Shown piece after piece: positions 28,601 through 42,700 of a stretch of 64,000 nucleotides of DNA (position 1 is the first letter of the stretch; every line of letters starts with the position of its first letter). A program made the position numbers and the translations under genes. The stretch comes from Paracyclopina nana. Taxonomy: Eukaryota; Arthropoda; Copepoda; Cyclopoida; Cyclopettidae. Location: contig JAGUCH010000009.1 in assembly GCA_019096065.1 (NCBI GenBank), positions 1,684,001-1,748,000 on the forward strand. The letters are read 5' to 3'. The notes beneath the pieces were generated by a model. It did not search any database. It saw only the letters and a program-made list of their open reading frames with translations, and had not been told where the DNA came from.

Positions 28601-31600
28601 TTGATCAAATTGTGGTGATAGACGAAGCCAAAATCTTGACAATTGCGAGAGTTGTCAATTTGGCCATTACCATTCTCATGACAGCCTTTGATGTTATGCT
28701 GAGGGACGATTTGGCCACATCTTTGTTTTATGGCATCTTAACTGAAGGAGTTGTCCACTTTGGCCACTCAATTTTTGAACTCTATGGAATGTTTCTGACA
28801 ATTGTTTCAAACTTGACAGTTTTAGTTGGGGTCCTACTGTACTTGCGAATTGAGGTGGATAACCAGCAAGAAAATGCTGTAAGGTATAATAATGCTAGTG
28901 AGTCAGTCAAAGTACTCAGGATTCGAGTAATTTGCACCATAATTGTGACTTTGGCCCTTCTACTGTTTGTGGTGGCTCCAAGTTTTTCGGCTCAAGAAGT
29001 TATGGATTACTGGCTGTTCACAATAATGATTACTATTTTGTTTGGCATTTCACCCCCAATTTTTGCATTGAGCCATGAAAAAATTAGGAAGAATATTTCA
29101 TCCAAGATCTTTTTTTGTGCTTCTTCTGGTGACTCAAACTTTCTTCAAACATGAAAATATGAGCATAAAAAACAATATTAGAAATGTCTAGCAGTATTAA
29201 AATATGTGTCTTGTCGTATTATATGATTGCATGTTCATGAGGCTTGAAAAATAAAGAGTTGTTTATAATGATGGAGCATAGGGAACAAAATGACAAAGAA
29301 AGCTCTCTTTTTGAGCTTGTAGCAGTACAATTGAATCAAGGAACTAAGTCTACAAGCCCATTTTAACCAAAAATCCGCAGATCTTTTTCTCTTGAGAACG
29401 ATTTTTCCTGGAATTCTTTCTTTGATGCAGTATAATTATTGCTAACTAAGAAAGCATAAGCATTACATTAATAGAAACATTTTGCCCTCGGAGAAGATAA
29501 TTGCTAATTAAAGATAATTAAAGTTATGATAATGTAAGATAATTTGAGGCAGAAGATAAATTTCGACCTTTCTAGCTGATGGTTTTGACGTAAGGATGCG
29601 TCATAACTTGTTTCGAAAAATCCCTTTTCCCCATTTAACTTAAGCCTTTTCGTTGAGATTTAGCAGTAATTTTGTAGCATATCTTGTAGGTGAGCCTCAG
29701 GCCTGATGCAAAAAGGCGAAAATTCTGCATACCAAATGCTACTAATTTTCATAATACTGATCATTTGTTTGGTGGGGAGCGCTTTCACTTAAACTCTATG
29801 GCAACTTAACATTATGCACACATTTCTCATCTTGTCTAGTCTGCAGCCATCATTAGAAAAGAATGCACGTGTTTTGGAATTATTTCCTTAGCGGAGTCTT
29901 TGCTATCACATGTCACAGTAGGGTCACTCCTAATAAAAAAGTCGCATCTTTGAAAAGTACGTGAAAATGCGCCATAACTTTAAGAATGCCAAAAATTGGC
30001 ATTTTCTTGATAAATCCCCTTCTAAATCATATGAAAGTCATTCTAAAGCCAGAAAAATGTAAATTAATTAGGTTTTTAGGCAGCCAATTGCCTAAATTGA
30101 TCAAAAACATACCAATTTTAATAAAAATAGCCACAAGTTTGGTTTGCAAAAACCCTGTCGAATCTCACAAGAATGTGGATATATGAACACAACATAGGTA
30201 CAAAATTATTCCATGGTGTCCTACTGAAGTTTTTTGGAAAGCATCTTGAGGACTGCTGAGGTCCAAGGGATCTAGACTCATATAGTTTTTTCTGATTTTC
30301 GTGCAGCCTTTTGAGACAGATTTTCATAGACAAAATCTGAGTTTGATAAAATAAAATCTCCAAAGGTAACATTTTAGTTGCCCAAAAACATCATGGAAGT
30401 CAATTTTGAAGTGTTAGCATCAATCTAGAGCCGAATTAGTGATAGCCTTTTTCGCTTAAGTTTCAATGAAAACGATGCGACTTTTTTGTTAGGAGTGACC
30501 CTTCTGTGCATGTGCGTCAACCACAGCCTTTGCATGTATTGTCATCAGCTACTTGAAAAGAAAGGCTCTTGGCATGCAAACTTTTGTTGACAAATGTTTG
30601 ATTGAAGCTCTCTATGGGTTCCTCTACTTTGCTTGGACTTGAGGATTGAAATGGATAAAAGGCAACACAATGCTCACATTATTGAGCGCATAGCTGCAAA
30701 TAATGAATCAATCAAAATCCATTTGATTCGTGCCATTTGCACCATAGTTGTGGCTTTCAATCTTCTTGTCTTCGCAGTGGCTCCTCATTCGTCATTTCAG
30801 GAGGAGATGGATTTTTTCCTGGTCACTTGCATGGTTTTGATTTGCTTTGGCATTTCCCCTCCATTTTTTGCCCTTAGTCATAAAAAAATTAGGTTGAAAA
30901 TTGCTGAGAAAATCAATTTTTGGACTTCTGACGATGCCATATTTGCACTTTCAACATGAAAAATAGAGATGAAAGCACTAATGTGTTGTCTCTAAGCCAA
31001 ACAAAGGGTTTGGATGATTTTTCTGACATATTTTGAACTATGTGGTCTAATCTTGAAATGTTTTTTCATCTTTGTAGAGAATGGATGGAGATAAAAGCAA
31101 CAAATCGCGAAAACAGCAGAAAGTGGTGCAAAAAGCGTGGCCTTGAGGAGCAAAGGTTTTACGAGATGACCAAGTTGAGGCAGCAATTCAAGGACCTCCT
31201 GGAGGATGCCAACCTGCTCAAAAAGGACCTGAAAAACATGTCCTCATCCCAACGTGCCAAAAGGCATGGCGAATTGAAAACTTTACGAGACATGAAGAAG
31301 GAGTTTCAAAAGAGTGAGGGTGGTGAAAAGAAGAAAAAGTTCCTCAAGATGAGAGCTTTCGATCATCAAGGTGAGGATGAAGATGATGATGGCAAGATTG
31401 ACTTGAAAGACATCGAGTTCCGGATGAGAAACGATGCTGGCAACGTGCTTCAAAATGCAAAGACCATCACGTACAAAGATCTCAATATCCTGAAGGTGAT
31501 TCTGGCCTCCGGATTGTATCCTCAGTTGGCAATGCCGGATGAGTTCAACTCCGCCAAGTCCGGAATGGACATGCTTTTTCACACCAGAGTCAAGCCATTC

Positions 31601-32485
31601 AATGTGCTGCATCCCAATTGCATTTTTGCTGCCTATCCGGAGCAAGTCAACCTGGACAGCCTGGACATTATAAATGTGCCTGGGTTTCCTGCCAAGTATC
31701 CTGTGAGCACCAAGCACCAACTGCTCGTCTACTTGTCATTGCTGGAGACCAACAAGCCATACCTGATCAATACGACAAGGATGCCAGCTCTTCATACTCT
31801 ATTGCTCCTGTCCAAAAACATTGACACCAACAGAAGCTTTTCAGCTCTTGTATTCGACTCCTGGATCGAAATCAAATTTCCCCAGCCTCAGCAAGGCCAA
31901 GAGTTGCTTGTGAAGGCCACACGACTGCGATCCCTTTGGCAATCCTTGCTTACGTATAAGCTAACTGATGAGGATTTCGAGGGAATGGCCCAAATGGAGT
32001 CCAAGCTTGGCAAAGGACTGATGAGCTTTTTGCACACTGAGGTTGCTTACTCGATAAAACGACTCTTGCCCGGAGACTTGAAAATTGCCTTTGTTGGCCC
32101 CGGCTGTGGGCAAGAGTTGACAATCGATGAGAATCCCTTCGAAGCAAATTACCCCATCAAAGAGAATGAGTTGAAAGGAGGCTTTTGCATGGCCGAATAT
32201 TTGACCTACAACAGTCTGGTCAGCTCTGCAGAGGAAGCTGGCCAAGCCTGCATTCAGTTTGAGTGCGAAATTTGCGGAAAGGCGGAATATGCCTCGCATA
32301 TCCAAAGAGTCATCCATTTTTCCCAATGTTTCGACGCAAAAGAGCAGGCAGCTGAGGATAACGTTGAGGTGGAGACTCGAAAACGAGACCCGAATTGCGT
32401 TGAGTACTTGTGCAAAACGTGCGACAAAGCTCTCTTTTTGTCTCCCACTGAGATCTTGAGGCACAAAAACAGCCATAACTTGTGA
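25668..32485 (+). CDS. DHX34: DEAH-box RNA helicase DHX34, about 1115 aa
   Basis: DHX34 is a DEAH helicase that supports UPF1 phosphorylation in nonsense-mediated decay and binds RUVBL1/2. Two exons join in phase 2: 25668-27607 and 31078-32485. An Arg/Ser-rich N-terminus precedes the family-specific block FRDEDLIQAGSNEYRDFWTF. Helicase motifs follow: GDTGCGKST (about residue 183), DEVHERHLHADF (about 278), MSATIN (about 309) and QRKGRSGRTGPG (about 483). The HA2 region spans the splice site (TLLNAFREWMEIK). The second exon includes NSRKWCKKRGLEEQRFYEM, an OB-fold and two C-terminal CxxC elements (CEICGK, CKTCDK) with the typical ending EILRHKNSHNL. The DEAH motif reads DEVH. The start could instead be the Met at 25707. 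A poly(A) signal lies at 32537-32542. The intron holds two receptor-type sequences. Confidence 0.95.
28237..29154 (+). CDS. Seven-transmembrane receptor-like protein, 305 aa, single exon
   Basis: An uninterrupted frame with seven hydrophobic segments at about residues 17-42, 57-80, 95-118, 138-158, 178-205, 229-250 and 260-280. The last is followed by GISPPIFALSHEKIRKNI, which resembles the TM7/helix 8 junction of class A receptors (NPxxY-like position, here SPPIF). I cannot name a family. Short loops, lack of introns and a local paralogue suggest a lineage-specific, perhaps chemosensory, receptor; this is inference. The start could be the Met at residue 12 or 14. It has its own poly(A) signal (AATAAA, 29250-29255). 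It lies in the DHX34 intron on the same strand, so it must be made from its own promoter or its poly(A) site must be skipped by host transcripts. Confidence 0.75.
   Translation: MRLVIIDNWRSMHMYWNIFLSCTLVATLVSTTIFVFIVIYYLKGKAVGMQTFIDKCLVDALYGFLLYAWTVEVTLAFGLVNPMFNELGCRIYIALHTFTNLYWELFAILFFAVKYLTIFHNLDQIVVIDEAKILTIARVVNLAITILMTAFDVMLRDDLATSLFYGILTEGVVHFGHSIFELYGMFLTIVSNLTVLVGVLLYLRIEVDNQQENAVRYNNASESVKVLRIRVICTIIVTLALLLFVVAPSFSAQEVMDYWLFTIMITILFGISPPIFALSHEKIRKNISSKIFFCASSGDSNFLQT
29250..29255 (+). terminator. Poly(A) signal of nested 7TM gene
   Basis: AATAAA 96 bases after the stop of the nested receptor gene, inside the DHX34 intron. Confidence 0.6.
29863..30959 (+). pseudogene. Broken paralogue of the nested 7TM gene
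   Basis: Sequence similar to the 28237-29154 gene resumes in three parts. Part one (29863-29913, MHVFWNYFLSGVFAITC) matches the N-terminus. It is split by the transposon at 29914-30508. Part two (30514-30637) matches residues about 31-70 up to AWT. An internal deletion of about 397 bp in the parental frame then removes TM3 to TM5. Part three (30638-30959) matches the sequence from LRIEVD to the C-terminus, with FGISPPFFALSHKKIR preserved. The 397-bp loss shifts the frame and gives TGA at the junction. It is a disabled tandem duplicate. Confidence 0.88.
29914..30508. mobile_element. Non-autonomous DNA transposon, 595 bp, 35-bp TIRs
   Basis: Terminal inverted repeats of about 35 bp begin CACAGTAGGGTCACTCC on the left and, complemented, CACAGAAGGGTCACTCC on the right; they continue to GTCGCATC. 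The 5-bp sequence CATGT flanks both ends (29909-29913 and 30509-30513). Removing the element and one CATGT restores alignment to the intact receptor, so the limits are supported by an empty-site comparison. No transposase frame is present. A 5-bp duplication and CACAG ends recall Transib, but a CMC-type element is not excluded. Confidence 0.88.
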
Positions 32486-33431: not shown

Positions 33432-33848
33432 AACCTGTCTTTTTCTGAAAATCTAGCTTATTGTTGCTTTAAAAATCTAACTACGTCAAGTTGTTCAACT
33501 TTTTGTTGCTATCAACTTCTATATATACTATAATCAAGCTTGAATTGCTTATTTGTTAGTTTGTCCAGACAGTCGTAATAAACTTTTTCCAAGGGCAAAA
33601 AACCTCCTAATTTTAGATTCAGTTTGAACTATGAGCTAAAAAATCTTGAAGACGTCGATACCAAAATTGTAGTGCTTTTGTAGTAGTTCTCTCCAGGAAA
33701 AACTAGCTAGAGAGCCAATAATGATGGTAATCAGTATTGATGTTTCAATTGAGCATTTTTTCAAGCTCTCCCATTTTCTAAGGTGGAGTGGATTGAATCG
33801 GGGAAGCATTACTTGAAAAATGGCTAAGTATACACAATAACACTATGA

Positions 33849-35573
33849 ATGTTTTCAGTACCTGATTTATTCATTACTTTAATAATCAGCCTGAAGTTAG
33901 TCATTTCATTGGTTTCTCCTGTGGTTCTGATCACTTGCATCTGTCTAGTAATTGTTGGTATCCAACGCAAAAAAATGCAGCCATTAACATCAGGAAAAGT
34001 TGGTAGCTACTATGAAAAAGTGTTATCAATCGGACTCGAAGAAAAACTTGGTACTGACATTTATTGATTTTTCTTATTGGGTATACAAATAAAGCTACAC
34101 TTTCTGACTATGTTAGGCCCTTGCTATTACGAAGTGTATATAGGAGATGGGTTTTGTGATGATCATGCCAACAGTCCAGAATGCAATTTTGACGGGAACG
34201 ATTGCTGCCATGAGTTTTTACACAAATATTTTTGCATCAAGTGCATTTGTCATCTTGACGGTCTAACACATCCCTCCCCTTTAAGCCTAGGTTAAGCTAC
34301 ATTTAAAAAAAGCTCTTTAATTATTTTTCACGACAGCTATTATTCTCAGATGAAAAATGTGAAAACTGGAACATGGTGGGAAATGGCTATTGTGATGACT
34401 TGAACAACAATGAGAACTGCGACTTTGATGGCAATGATTGTTGCTTACCAACGATTCTTAAATCTTGCGTGGACTGCATTTGTCACCTGGATGGACTGAG
34501 ACATCCAATTGAGCAATTGCATGATTATGGGAGAGCAAGTAAGAGCAGCCAATTCTGGTGGATAATCAATGTATGCCATAAGCTTGACTTCCCTGACTTG
34601 GTCACTCAATTGGATTCGTTTGGAATAAAAAGTTATGGAAGATTCAATTTTTGCTCAATTTGTGCAAAATTGCTGTTCTACTGAATTCGCCAAAATCAAC
34701 TTTTTCCCCAAAATTATTTTTTCAGCACCAAATTTGAATCTTTAACTGTCATTTACATTAGTTTGAGCTCTCTTGATAGTCTAGAAATTGTTCAAATTAG
34801 AAGATGAAAATTGGTACCAAAAACGGAAATCTGCGATTTGACGCAATTTCTCGTGCGCGTAAAATCGGCTTTTTGATCCACCGTGGAATGCTACTACGAC
34901 GGTGGCGATTGCTGCCTCGCAAAAGTCAACAATGCACAGTGTGTATTGTGTGCTTGCAAAAAGTACCCGATGTTGAGCAACCCGAATGAAGGAAACAACC
35001 AGGATGGGGCTTGCCTGTCACCGCTTTTACTCTATATTGGAGATGGAGTCTGTAATGAAGCCAATAATTTACCCAGCTGTGATCATGATGGAGGTGATTG
35101 TTGCCTGAAGAAAATATTTAAAGACTGCACAGACTGCACTTGTCACTTGGACGGAGTGATGCACCTTGAGGCTTGCTACAATGGAATTTTTCAAGTGAAT
35201 ATTGGCGATGGGGTGTGTCAGGATTACATGAATATTGAAGAGTGCTCACAAGATGGCTACGATTGCTGTATTCCGCTCATAGTAATAGACGAATGCACAG
35301 ATTGCATTTGTCACCTGGATGGGACGAGGCATCAAGGCAGGTCATTGGTGCATGGTAATTCTATAGCTTTATTATTGTTATAATATTAAATTAGTTGATT
35401 AAGACTGCTTGTATCCATCACATTATCTTGGTGATGGGATATGTGATGATGTTGCCAACAATGAGAAATGTGATTTCGATGACGGAGATTGCTGCTTGGA
35501 ACTTATTCGTGTAGAGGCATGCACAGATTGCAAGTGTCACTTGGACGGAACCAAACATCCTTCCTCTATTTAA
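33849..35573 (+). CDS. Membrane-anchored multi-LNR (Lin12/Notch-like repeat) protein
   Basis: Readable exons are 33849-34050, 34117-34290, 34350-34538, a central block ending at 35354 and 35404-35573. The resolved junctions are phase 1. Exon 1 is hydrophobic (LFITLIISLKLVISLVSPVV and on) followed by QRKKM, a signal anchor or one end of a longer gene, because an AG sits just upstream (33857). Five good modules and one decayed one follow. Each has IGDGxCDD, an ECxxDGxDCC calcium-binding core and a tail CxDCxCHLDGxxHP. Canonical LNRs bind calcium and occur in Notch, PAPP-A and GNPTAB; here the Cys of the CDxxCN segment is missing and the DCC pair is added. The central exon's 5' limit is unresolved: the third repeat (34810-34990) carries a stop and frameshift. 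A poly(A) signal is at 35593-35598. Function unknown. Confidence 0.75.
34117..34290 (+). other. LNR module 1 exon
   Basis: A phase 1-1 exon encoding one module: IGDGFCDDHANSPECNFDGN, then DCC and CIKCICHLDGLTHP. A symmetrical exon can be duplicated or skipped without changing frame. Confidence 0.8.
34350..34538 (+). other. LNR module 2 exon
   Basis: A phase 1-1 exon with VGNGYCDDLNNNENCDFDGN, DCC and CVDCICHLDGLRHP. Confidence 0.8.
34810..34990 (+). pseudogene. Decayed LNR module 3
   Basis: The second half (ECYYDGGDCCLAKVNNAQC, then CACKK) is readable, but the first half is in a different frame and a TGA lies at 34874-34876. The CHLDG tail is replaced by CKKYP. It is either a broken exon or an exon split by an intron that I could not place. 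Confidence 0.55.
34991..35354 (+). other. LNR modules 4 and 5, fused exon
   Basis: Two modules with no intron between them: IGDGVCNEANNLPSCDHDGG with CTDCTCHLDGVMH, then IGDGVCQDYMNIEECSQDGY with CTDCICHLDGTRH. The donor at 35355 is phase 1. Confidence 0.75.
35404..35573 (+). other. LNR module 6 exon (last)
   Basis: GDGICDDVANNEKCDFDDGD, CC and CTDCKCHLDGTKHP, then SSI and a stop. Confidence 0.8.
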
Positions 35574-37300: not shown

Positions 37301-38527
37301 TAATGATAACACGCTACCAAACCTTTATTACTACCCATACTAGACTGCTGTGCAACATTCAACTGTGATTCAAATTATAATTTTAGCTAGTAAACATTCA
37401 TGGGCATCATGTAAAATGCAAAGAACTACTACATACAAAACATTCTTGCCGTGTAAAAGTATCTAAATTGCTTCACATTGATATTATCGATAATAAACCA
37501 TATACGAGCGAATATACATATATCATTATCCGTATCAACAGCATAAAAATGGATATGCAAATCTAGTCCGATGAATAAGAAAGCTAACAGTACAAAAATA
37601 GAGTCTGCTTGGCGAAAAGCTTGGCTAAAAATTATTGCCTGATTTGTAAAAAGCCAACTTCAACCATTCTGGAGTCCAAAAATAAGACATTGCTAAAAGC
37701 ATCAATAATAGAGTCCGATTCATGTAACTGAGTGAATTGAGGGATTTTCTTCAATTCCAGCCGTCAACTCGAGATTATATATGTGCTAAACTAAAGCCTG
37801 ATGATTTCTTCAAGATTTTTTTCCGAAGAAAGTTCCGATACTTCAAGCTTTGAAAAAGTAGTCACGCAACCTCGCGGAGTAATCACTGCTTTGTTTGAAA
37901 ATAGCGCCTTTTCTCTGCATCGGGAAATAGTTCGAACTTAATACATCATTCAATTAAGTTAGATCATGAAATGAATCGATTTTCTAAAATCAAGTCCAAA
38001 TTAGGCTTTCTTTCAGTTTCAGTGGGTTATTTTGGCTTTTACGCCCGCTTTACCACCAGACTTTTTCATGGAGTTTGAATTTTCTCTCAGCCGCGGAGTA
38101 AACTAAGCGCTACTTTACCGACAGCGTCCATTAACAGAAGCCGAATTTTGCGTACGAAACTCTCGCGAAGGTAAGTCTTTTCGCCCTTACCGTTCTTTTT
38201 AGAGGCCGGTTGGCGATCAATTCTTCGATTTCCAAGTCATTCGTCAAAGCTCTTCACCTTCACCCCGTTGTTTTGACGCAAAAATTGACCAAAGCATTGA
38301 AAAATTTGAGAATTGCATTGTCAGTTTAAAAGCCGCGAATTCGCTCCAACATTCATCAATTGGCTTGTTGAAGCTCAAATTGCCTTGTAACTGGTTACCT
38401 TACATTCATGACGATCATTCTGGCTTGATTAGAGGTGGTTTTCCACTGAGATGTCAAAGATTGAGCCGGATTCGGTTTTGACGCCTTTGTTTACATTGCA
38501 GTGATTTGACGAGAAAAATAATCGAAA
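37301..38527. other. Spacer and presumed promoter/5' UTR of BTB gene
   Basis: No gene seen from 37301 to about 38030. From 38030 the sequence is less AT-rich, with CpGs, and may hold the BTB promoter and 5' UTR. A copy of TCACGCAACCT lies at 37862-37872. Confidence 0.45.
37862..37872 (+). promoter_or_regulatory. TCACGCAACCT motif upstream of BTB gene
   Basis: One of four exact copies of this 11-mer in the window (others at 16518, 51312 and, reversed, 53625). The complement AGGTTGCGTGA contains a bHLH-PAS/XRE-like core (TTGCGTG). A regulatory role is inferred only. Confidence 0.3.
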
Positions 38528-39756: not shown

Positions 39757-42700
39757 TTATTGCAAATATTTGTACAATTTGAAGCAGTGGTTGCCGCTGT
39801 CAGCCACGGCAATATGGCCGTCATCAGTGAGAGCCAGGCCTTGAGGCCCATACAGAGGACACCCAAGGGTATTAACGAATGACAAAAACGAGCCCTGACT
39901 ATCGAAGATTTGTATGCGTGAGTTGCCCCAGTCTGCAACCATGATATTATCTTGAGCATCCACAGCCACTCCGGTTGGTGCGTTGAATTGGCCATTTCCC
40001 TCTCCATTGGAGCCGAAGCTGAATAGGAACTCTCCAGTGGCGTCAAAAACCTGAAAAAAATTAATGCACATTACTGCTAACTGCCACAGCTATAAATCGT
40101 CCTGAAAGAGCCTTAATCCTCTCGGCCTTAGGTTTCCAGCCAATATGTCACTGAAGGCCATTAAAGTACACTAAATGGCAGTGCCAAAAACTGGCACCAT
40201 TACAAATTACCTTGATGGAGTGGTTATGGAAATCGGAAATGATGATATGGTCCAGTGAGTTGATGGCTACGAAATGAGGTCCAGCCAATTTGTCCGGCTC
40301 GCTGCTGCCCCTCGAGCCGAATTTCTGTATGAGCTTTCCATTGGGTTGGAACACGAGGATGCACGAGGCCTTATTATCTACCACGACCAAATGTCCGGAA
40401 CGGTTAACTGCGATTCCTTTTGGGCCTGCAAGAAGAGTGGAGGGTATATATGAGGAAAAATGGCCTGGCAATTACTCTCCTAAAGGCTTGTGCATTAAGG
40501 CCACCGAAACTGCAAGAACTACAAAACTTGGGATTATTTCTTCTACATCATTCCGCACAAAAGTTCCAAGATCTCTTTGAAGCATATGTAACTTCGTCGT
40601 TAATTAAATCTATTGACAATAATGGCAAGTACTTTGAGCACTATCTAGGTGTCCAAGACGGGGAGTTGCTCAGCATCGTCTCGGATTATTTGAGCGTAAA
40701 AGTAGCAATTTAGCAATCTGGCTCAATTTTTCTATTTCCTAACGCTTTGCTCGGATCATGCATAGAGTACCTAGAAGTTTGCCAGCTCCAATTTTGTTGA
40801 CGAACTTGCCATTGGGTTCAAAGACTGTGACACATTTGTTGTCATAGTCTGCTACAGCCAAGTTTCCGTTATGCATCAAGGCCACTCCGGTTGGCCTTTG
40901 TAGTTGGCCAGGTCCTCGACCACGGACTCCAAAGCGTAGCCTAACACAGCCTGTCACAGCATCAAAGCACTGCACGCATTGATTATTCGAGTCTGACACC
41001 ACAATGAGCCCTACGAAAAACGAAATCGAAGAATACACAGGAAATTATTAAGGCTCCGTTCAGCTGCATGGCTTTTCGGCAAAATATCAAAGTCATAAAT
41101 ATTTTTTGCCAAAAAGTATGAAAAGGTTGATAGAAACCATGGCTGAAATTTGCTATTCGCAGCCAAAATATCAAATGGGGCAGGTGCACATGTCCTAAGA
41201 GAAATGTAGTGTACCATCAGGTGACATGGCGACCCCTTGGGGATTGGTAAATTCGCCTCTATTGCGGCCTCGGTTGCCGACCTTTAAGACAAGGTCATCT
41301 TCTATGGGATTGTTTCTCGAGCAAGCGCTGCCTGCAAACGACCTGGAAATAAATTGCATTTATCATTATATCTTTTCTATTCACGTCGTCTGTCATGCTG
41401 CATGACAGCCCGCACTGTAAATGCTATTTATCACGACGAGAAAATCCAAAAAAATAAATACCTAGCTGAGGACGGCCTTTTTGCCGACCGATGACGCATT
41501 GTGGAGCTAGAAGGTCGCACCGCCGTGGATTTAGGCCTTTCAGCCATCTCACTAATGTAGGGTAAGCCAGAAATCTGAAGGGAGACGAATGCACTTTAAA
41601 AGCATTTCCCCAAACCTGCCTCAAAATAAGGCTGAATTATTAGGCCCAGTGTAGTACAGTAGAAATAAGGTATTCTTTGTGCACGAGGCAACGACGTCTA
41701 TTGACTATTGATTTGAGCCTACTTTTGTAATAAGGTGCTTTTTCTCATATGATACACATGGACCTTCTTTTGTAATGGCCACATTTTCGTAACAAGAGTC
41801 TCATTTCAAATTGTGAGAAAAGAAAGCCACGAAATGTGGTGCTATTTTTCTGGTGAGGCCAGCATTAAATAAAAAAGTGGGAAAAGCTCTTGTGGGAAAT
41901 TGTTTACCGTGAAGGGACTTCCATTGATGTGGTGACCAAACAATTTAATGGCTAGCTCGTACTGTCCGTCCACAGGAAGTCCATACTTGAGCTCATAAGT
42001 GCCATCCTCCATGTCAGTGAGCTCGGTCGTCAATTGAAACGGCTGGCCGCCACCTCGAATTTGCACTGGCACGAGCTCGCATAAAAAGCTTTCAACTGTC
42101 GGCCCCAAGGTCACATTTCCCTGCCAATCTCTGGCTGTAATTGTCACCACCGTCTGACGACCCACGTAACACTGCTTCGTGCCCTCCCCCAAAGCAGTGG
42201 TTTGCGTATGGAGAGCAGACGAGCTGAACAATTCGCCCCAAGCTGAGATGATCCTCTTCAGCATGGTTGCATCACCTGCAAATTCATAAAGTTATTTTTA
42301 GGTGTCCCAGACGGGAAATCTATTTACTGTCCGGTATTATTTAACCTAACTACATTTTATTCTAAGGTGATCTTGATGGCGCAACTGATAGCGCACTCTA
42401 CTACCAATCGCGAGGTCTAAGGTTCGAGTCCGCGCAATTTCATTATTTTTTTAGAGCTGAAATTCGGCCTTGCTAGCTCGCTCCGCTCTAATTAATACGC
42501 ACCTTTTTCAAAAACCAAGTAGGGATTCTCCGCTGGCGTGGTGACCACTTGCATTTGGCCATACTCCATCAATCTTTCGCCGACTTGCTTTTTGACGAGC
42601 AAAATCTCCGTCTCGGATCCGTGCGTGAGTGCTTTCTCCACGAATTCACAGCTGGTGTAAAGATCTCCGAGGCTCGATTCCAACTCGTCCTTTTGCCTCA

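Follow-up and report, generated by a model that had tools for sequence, protein, structure and literature searches.

The window, a 64,000-nucleotide stretch of the Paracyclopina nana genome (contig C9:1684001-1748000), carries a gene built from LNR-like modules, and the module is a general LNR-like unit that is expanded in this genome and forms a real, well-kept class. By a modest preference, we favor the reading that the window gene belongs to a large extracellular poly-LNR family, as a copy that has been shortened and probably damaged, and that the modules of this family act as calcium-dependent docking surfaces resembling the exosite of PAPP-A. In window coordinates, the gene comprises the following features (contigs are always named as such, to keep them apart from the cysteines C1 to C10):

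33820-33827, plus strand: exon 1, predicted coding micro-exon ATGGCTAA with the start codon; ends in phase 2
33890-34050, plus strand: exon 2 (predicted); together with exon 1 it encodes MANLKLVISLVSPVVLITCICLVIVGI, a predicted signal anchor or signal peptide, plus a linker, from hydropathy and paralogs; ends in phase 1
34117-34290, plus strand: exon 3 (phase 1-1, joins in frame), module 1; eight cysteines, CHLDGLTHP tail, Pfam Notch 24.3 bits
34350-34538, plus strand: exon 4 (phase 1-1), module 2; eight cysteines, CHLDGLRHP tail, Pfam Notch 16.8 bits
34801-35011, plus strand: remnant of the paralogs' module 5, from alignment with three paralogs; placement approximate given the divergence
35012-35164, plus strand: module matching the paralogs' module 6; eight cysteines, CHLDGVMH tail, from paralog alignment and invariant columns
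35174-35353, plus strand: module matching the paralogs' module 7; eight cysteines, CHLDGTRH tail, from paralog alignment and invariant columns
35404-35573, plus strand: last exon, module 8 and stop codon; eight cysteines, CHLDGTKHP tail, Pfam Notch 20.4 bits

The predicted gene start is most likely at 33820, because the micro-exon joins the hydrophobic exon in frame in all four genes compared (the window copy and three paralogs). In each of these genes ATGGCNAA, followed directly by GT, lies 63-71 nt 5' of the first full codon of the hydrophobic exon, the intron after the micro-exon is 54-62 nt long, and the joined product reads MAN-x-K-... in frame. The earlier note had the hydrophobic exon begin with the ATG at 33849, a start that finds no support, since the frame conserved in the other three genes begins at the micro-exon. 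The hydropathy of exon 2 peaks at a mean of 2.93 over a 19-residue window and a homologous exon is present in the three paralogs, which makes the proposed secreted or membrane-anchored poly-LNR protein plausible. Upstream of the LNR gene, positions 31037-32485 hold part of a DHX34-like gene (OB-fold, C2H2 domain); downstream of it are a BTB exon at 38522 (Pfam BTB) and NHL repeats at 39757-40089 on the minus strand.

In the cysteine numbering of the Notch LNR (C1-C6), the window modules keep C1, C3, C5, and C6 and lack C2 and C4, and they carry the extra cysteines C7-C10, arranged as DCC, then C, xxC, and xC. A complete module in this gene (n=5) thus has eight cysteines and a CxxCxCHLDGxxH tail. 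The pattern common to the five is [IVL]GxGxCxx...C..D..DCC...CxxCxCHLDGxxH, with 18 columns invariant in 5/5 (C1, G, G, C3, N, C5, D, D, C6, C7, C8, C9, C10, H, L, D, G, and H). The "five or six" modules counted at the outset correspond to these five, located at 34117-35573, while the sixth is the broken remnant. The CDxxCN cysteine, described earlier as missing, is indeed absent from all five complete modules, each of which has four of the six Notch cysteines belonging to the six-cysteine/three-disulfide LNR. Five pieces of the gene were scanned with Pfam, where the gathering cut-off of PF00066 (Notch) is 21.2 bits, and Notch was the only family over its cut-off. In this check against the family, the two pieces with module 1 scored above it (24.3 and 22.2 bits) and the other three pieces fell below 21.2, namely modules 2 and 8, with the scores given above, and the piece with modules 5-7 (17.7 bits). 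The tail was also considered as VWC2L_C (PF23331), a candidate rejected at 16.7 bits over 17 tail residues (cut-off 27). AlphaFold models of one module, with 5-row and 9-row alignments, reached mean pLDDT values of 41.6 and 43.3 and gave no usable fold.

Comparison with the paralogs reveals what has happened to the window copy. Three paralogs with eight modules are found at contig C4:1655-1661k, contig C7:1442-1449k, and contig C2:14954-14960k, and their modules are distributed over the exons in the order m1, m2, m3+m4, m5+m6+m7, and m8. Common to all four copies are the micro-exon, the hydrophobic exon, and a C-terminal HP-[ST]-[SF]-[IA]-stop. The window copy contains m1, m2, a broken m5, m6, m7, and m8, and its two-module exon (m3+m4) is lost. 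Aligned with the three paralogs, its m5 is frame-shifted, lacking 5 nt at one point and carrying 25 extra nt that include stops. In the 5' half of this remnant, C1 and GDGxC are gone and the reading is interrupted, and the 3' half is still legible as ECYYDGGDCC...CVLCAC. The modules do not form one continuous reading frame. From 34801 and from 34804, the acceptors tried at the position corresponding to that of the paralogs, reading stops after 12-13 residues of the three-module exon. Joining exon 4 (34538) to the last exon (35404) keeps the frame and yields modules 1, 2, and 8; an alternative site at 34926, in the three-module exon, also keeps it. Judged from its sequence, the window copy looks shortened and damaged, and this disruption makes its own protein product doubtful.

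A stronger version of this conclusion is that the window copy is a dead pseudogene and that the paralogs alone are functional, which we consider rather unlikely. The exon loss and the frame-breaking change, both relative to 3/3 paralogs, speak for it, as does the early stop from the acceptors tried. However, all eight cysteines are kept in each of the five modules, the predicted start, the other splice sites, and the stop are intact, and the frame survives skipping of the broken exon. Moreover, pN/pS is 0.22-0.30 between the window copy and the paralogs and 0.30-0.33 among the paralogs (196 codons), and the branch of the window copy is the shortest of the four (0.32), with no long branch, although recent death would leave the same marks and, because dS is saturated in 5/6 pairs, pN/pS shows constraint but not its timing. 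The selection test covers modules 1, 6, 7, and 8, with module 2 left out and the module 5 tail dropped (unequal length). Beside the contig C7 paralog there is a trypsin domain (L003:87-836, E 1.4e-30), which lies 3' of the stop of the LNR gene.

The module itself is best understood from the rest of the genome (91.95 Mb, 10 contigs). A search with the last module gave at least 150 matches (150 of 403 candidates scored) and one with PF00066 at least 105 (150 of 437 scored), the 105 all being marked as over the cut-off. Modules were then harvested from 59 loci and the window, a part of all match places, using a model of the core alone, which stops at C6 and is therefore blind to the tail. From 314 matches, 12 under 15 bits were dropped, leaving 302, and another 19 without a parsable C3..C6, leaving 283 modules in 46 clusters. 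C7, which makes the CC pair, is present in 240 of the 283, and the tail is found in 232 of the 240 modules with C7 as compared with 1 of the 43 without it. This supports the idea, put forward from the window alone, that the DCC and the cysteine tail are part of the module and not a linker. With redundancy removed at 80%, the tail is present/absent in 184/8 modules with C7 and in 1/38 without; at 60%, it is present in 88/94 and 0/27, respectively. Nor is the tail pattern a product of chance, as 200 composition-keeping shuffles of the tails gave a mean of 2.6 and a maximum of 8, as against 232/283. Collectively, these counts indicate that the family is far broader than the window finding and that the tail acts as one unit.

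Within the tail, the C7-C8 spacer is eight residues in 179 of 214 strict-pattern tails and the C8-C9 spacer is two. CHLD is a minor sub-signature (19/283 harvested modules), and the exact DNA pattern for CHLDGxxH occurs at 11 places in the genome, five of them within the window. D at +3 and H at +7 of the tail co-occur, with H in 54 of 76 tails with D vs 19 of 106 without (182 non-redundant tails; shared descent uncorrected). In the core, the residues at what we take to be the calcium-site positions of LNR modules are kept by sequence (N in 227/229, the first D in 228/229, and the last D in 215/229). All 26 diverse members match PF00066 at E up to 1, and none of the 26 was matched in an NCBIfam scan. 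The tail goes unannotated by the Pfam model, which has 36 positions; in one member of 52 residues, this leaves out residues 30-52.

Other arrangements were seen among the harvested loci. Six LNR-like modules at contig C2:15314302-15315144 (L058) have the extra cysteine after C5 (ECCFDGGDC), not after C6, and are without the CxxCxC tail; an upstream CxxC is present in 4/6, and they represent a second, different cysteine rearrangement. At contig C2:13602115-13611252 (L006-L008), an LNR module of identical sequence recurs at 13602115, 13604580, 13607045, and 13609512, in steps of 2465-2467 bases that mark a recent tandem duplication. At contig C2:793844-798087 (L028), GGAC replaces GGDC in nine of the 10 listed modules, which lie between Thr-rich linkers; calcium binding is probably lost in the GGAC modules, and six of the 10 end in CxCLDP. 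L055:2-676 is a fusion of modules with the tail and what is probably a C-type lectin domain (Lectin_C, 20.7 bits; cut-off 22.6). An LNR-trypsin fusion suspected at L029 from an IVGG string was discarded, as Pfam found no domain there.

The C4 that the window modules lack is rare in the whole set. In Notch LNRs, C2 and C4 are bonded to each other, so the loss of both looks like the loss of one disulfide. A Notch-type C4 is found in 10 of the 283 harvested modules, and two upstream cysteines are present in 8 of these 10 vs 33 of the 273 without C4, many of the 33 being cases where the cysteines belong to the tail of the preceding module. The single upstream cysteine that remains could be C1 or C2 by sequence and is taken as C1 because of the PAPP-A pattern. 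Three consecutive C4 carriers lie in a 1262-aa frame at contig C2:12954946-12955299, which has the canonical pattern and no tail and is probably the Notch of this genome; two more are in a Stealth-domain protein resembling GNPTAB (domains by Pfam) and one is an isolated module at contig C2:3451641. C4 and the full tail occur together, giving ten cysteines, at contig C2:3203456, 3204878, and 3205842 and at contig C5:6410489. These ten-cysteine modules may represent an intermediate stage or may have arisen by later gain. The tail is found in 0/6 modules of this genome with C4 but without C7.

Is such a tail known from elsewhere? The earlier note knew of no described LNR with one, a statement that has to be withdrawn: the C-terminal domain (CTD) of PAPP-A and PAPP-A2, i.e., LNR3 and the tail after it, shares all eight cysteines with the modules, in matching order, and the disulfides of PAPP-A have been published (PMC9780223). 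With a profile of the 26 diverse modules, 16 different PDB sequences were matched, ranked by E-value with GNPT-alpha/beta, not a pappalysin, first (6e-07), PAPP-A2 second (8.5e-07), and then a Drosophila chain, Notch chains, and PAPP-A. Among the five chain alignments listed, a missing C4 combined with DCC is seen only in the third LNR of PAPP-A and PAPP-A2. The PAPP-A chain reads GDCC-x15-C-x5-C-x-C-RDP and the PAPP-A2 chain GDCC-x15-C-x4-C-x-C-RDP, and the window modules have the PAPP-A-type order C1, C3, C5, C6-C7, C8, C9-x-C10. The core profile matches PAPP-A with E 3e-12; the hhalign alignment covers columns 6-34 of 51 and ends before the tail.

It could be argued that the likeness of the tails is convergence and that the module tail folds and pairs differently. 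We think this unlikely. The spacings do differ, as C7-C8 is 15 and C8-C9 is five or four residues in PAPP-A and PAPP-A2, compared with eight (in most tails) and two in this genome, so the link between the tails rests on the number and order of the cysteines and on CxC. The local profile alignment stops at the core. By a hand estimate, if three cysteines were placed at random in a 43-residue tail, CxC would stand at the end in ~7% of cases. Two observations argue against convergence: the four extra cysteines almost always appear as a set, and the PAPP-A-like CxCxDP ending is found in 10 of the 232 tails as well as in part of the modules from a bacterial MAG.

Returning to the favored reading, it is likely that the modules follow the PAPP-A CTD in how they fold, pair their cysteines, bind calcium, and dock to other proteins. 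Each repeat would consist of an LNR core, with its calcium-site residues kept and the C2-C4 disulfide most likely lost, and a four-cysteine tail. The published bonds of the PAPP-A domain (C1478-C1496, C1487-C1503, C1504-C1528, and C1520-C1526; PMC9780223, Table 1) correspond to C1-C5, C3-C6, C7-C10, and C8-C9 in module numbering. Because the eight cysteines match one for one, the expected module would have C1-C5 and C3-C6 in the core and C7-C10 and C8-C9 in the tail, and the tail would continue the LNR spiral, as is reported for the residues after LNR3 in PAPP-A (PMC9579167). Such a module might form a rigid, calcium-dependent protein-docking surface, as reported for the PAPP-A CTD with IGFBP-4 and STC2, the binding of both being weakened by calcium removal (PMC9579167). 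A chain of 5-8 such modules following a signal anchor could then dock in a multivalent manner, probably close to proteases outside the cell and to the proteins that these cleave. Two reports on PAPP-A itself speak against the exosite reading. In a predicted IGFBP4 complex, the CTD and LNR3 are too distant to interact (PMC9780223); formation of an LNR center is unfavored in the complex of the other study and the LNRs are not required for IGFBP5, though the C-terminal region with LNR3 is essential for efficient cleavage of IGFBP4 (PMC9489782).

The same reasoning can be extended, speculatively and with small probability, to the whole copepod LNR-like burst, which would be an expansion of PAPP-A-CTD-type exosites: multivalent, calcium-dependent chains that would trap proteins of the IGFBP kind as well as protease substrates or inhibitors and so tune extracellular proteolysis without a pappalysin, with HxDGxxHP adding a further, perhaps metal-assisted, contact. 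As a point against the favored docking reading, the two matches of this genome to the M43 (metzincin) domain are both on contig C7, apart from the window gene on contig C9, and no LNR match lies near either among the matches listed. Of four IGFBP-domain matches, three exceed the cut-off; one among the four is interrupted by a stop. A stanniocalcin search of the genome gave no match, and neither did its controls.

The modules may instead have no docking role and serve passively, as spacers or as rods that build an extracellular coat (cuticle, egg shell, or mucus). In some relatives (L046, L047, L054, and contig C2:793-798k), the modules form arrays and the linkers are rich in Thr and Ser, as would suit this role, but the strong conservation of the calcium-site residues and the tail argues against it, as do the yeast two-hybrid partners of two LNR proteins in Oithona nana (PMC8301441), and we regard it as quite improbable. 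A Notch-like mechanosensor, in which the LNRs shield a membrane-proximal cleavage site, would accord with modules behind a probable membrane anchor, but this anchor is N-terminal, no family other than Notch exceeded its Pfam cut-off in the scanned pieces, and the probable Notch modules of the genome (see above) are canonical and tailless, which makes the idea very hard to credit.

How does the docking module that we favor compare with known systems? Outside eukaryotes, 26 stretches of viral contigs matched the patterns and none was confirmed, phage records gave no match for module 1, and 23 stretches of bacterial and archaeal contigs matched, two of which were confirmed, in a Myxococcales MAG (L061) and a TMED161 MAG (L060). 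Both marine MAGs share the GDGxCDxxNNxxCxxDxGDCC core without C4 (MAG contamination is possible) but differ in having variable tail spacings and no CHLDGxxH. As to the restriction to one lineage that had been proposed as a check, these viral, bacterial, and archaeal contigs show the CC form of the core in the two MAGs and CHLDGxxH in neither. With a fixed pattern, the CxCxDP ending is counted in two of eight parsed L061 modules and 0/3 from L060; two more L061 endings of this type were recognized by eye (stretches at 939 and 2109). On its 41.8-kb contig, the Myxococcales MAG has a 1113-aa open frame with many DCC-type LNR cores, some ending in CxCQDP. PF00066 was found in two of 89 genomes of its relatives, one being the MAG itself, and the LNR form is therefore rare among them; the TMED161 MAG had no PF00066 match at E 0.001. 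A resemblance to the astacin-type LNRs of crustaceans is possible, and no claim is built on it here. The Notch LNR (PF00066) has the same core and calcium-site residues as the modules of this genome but differs in having three disulfides (PMC9579167).

Among copepods, the LNR expansion to which the earlier note alluded is on record for Oithona nana, where 178 LNR or LNR-like domains are reported in 75 genes, 156 of the 178 being LNR-like with loss of two cysteines, and 47 proteins are LNR-only (PMC8301441). These LNR-like domain proteins (LDPs) of O. nana are associated with trypsin, metallopeptidase, and lectin domains and some are predicted to be membranous; 27 of the genes are male-specific according to the abstract, the body of the paper giving 27 as differentially expressed and 18 as adult-male-specific. 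Two of the proteins showed yeast two-hybrid interactions with proteases, matrix proteins, or IGFBP7, the last bound by a trypsin-containing LNR protein (PMC8301441). The two copepods thus have in common a genome-wide burst, the loss of two cysteines, and LNR-only and protease- or lectin-associated proteins. The difference is that we saw no mention of a CC/CxC tail, PAPP-A CTD likeness, or CHLDG signature for O. nana; "pappalysin" is absent from the main text of PMC8301441 and "PAPP" appears there in one reference title only. In the literature, we found no report on LNR with astacin in copepods or on pappalysin with LNR in invertebrates.

The tail is thus not new, in that its PAPP-A template is solved and a similar burst has been published in a copepod. 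The PAPP-A/PAPP-A2 CTD (7Y5N, 8HGG, 8A7D, and 8SL1) shares with the modules an LNR core without the CN cysteine, the DCC, and three more cysteines ending in CxC. It differs in occurring only once, as the last part of a metalloprotease that is ~1550 residues long (PMC2770060/PMC10613257), whereas the window gene is an array of modules, and in a tail that ends in CRDP where the window modules end in CHLDGxxHP. The useful step is the link between this domain and the copepod burst, which for Oithona is described as LNR-like domains with two cysteines lost, with no structural template that we saw (PMC8301441). Read as a PAPP-A-CTD-like eight-cysteine unit, the module would have a solved structure as its template and an expected map of its disulfides, and a function could be put to the test, namely whether it docks proteases or IGFBP-like proteins in a calcium-dependent way.
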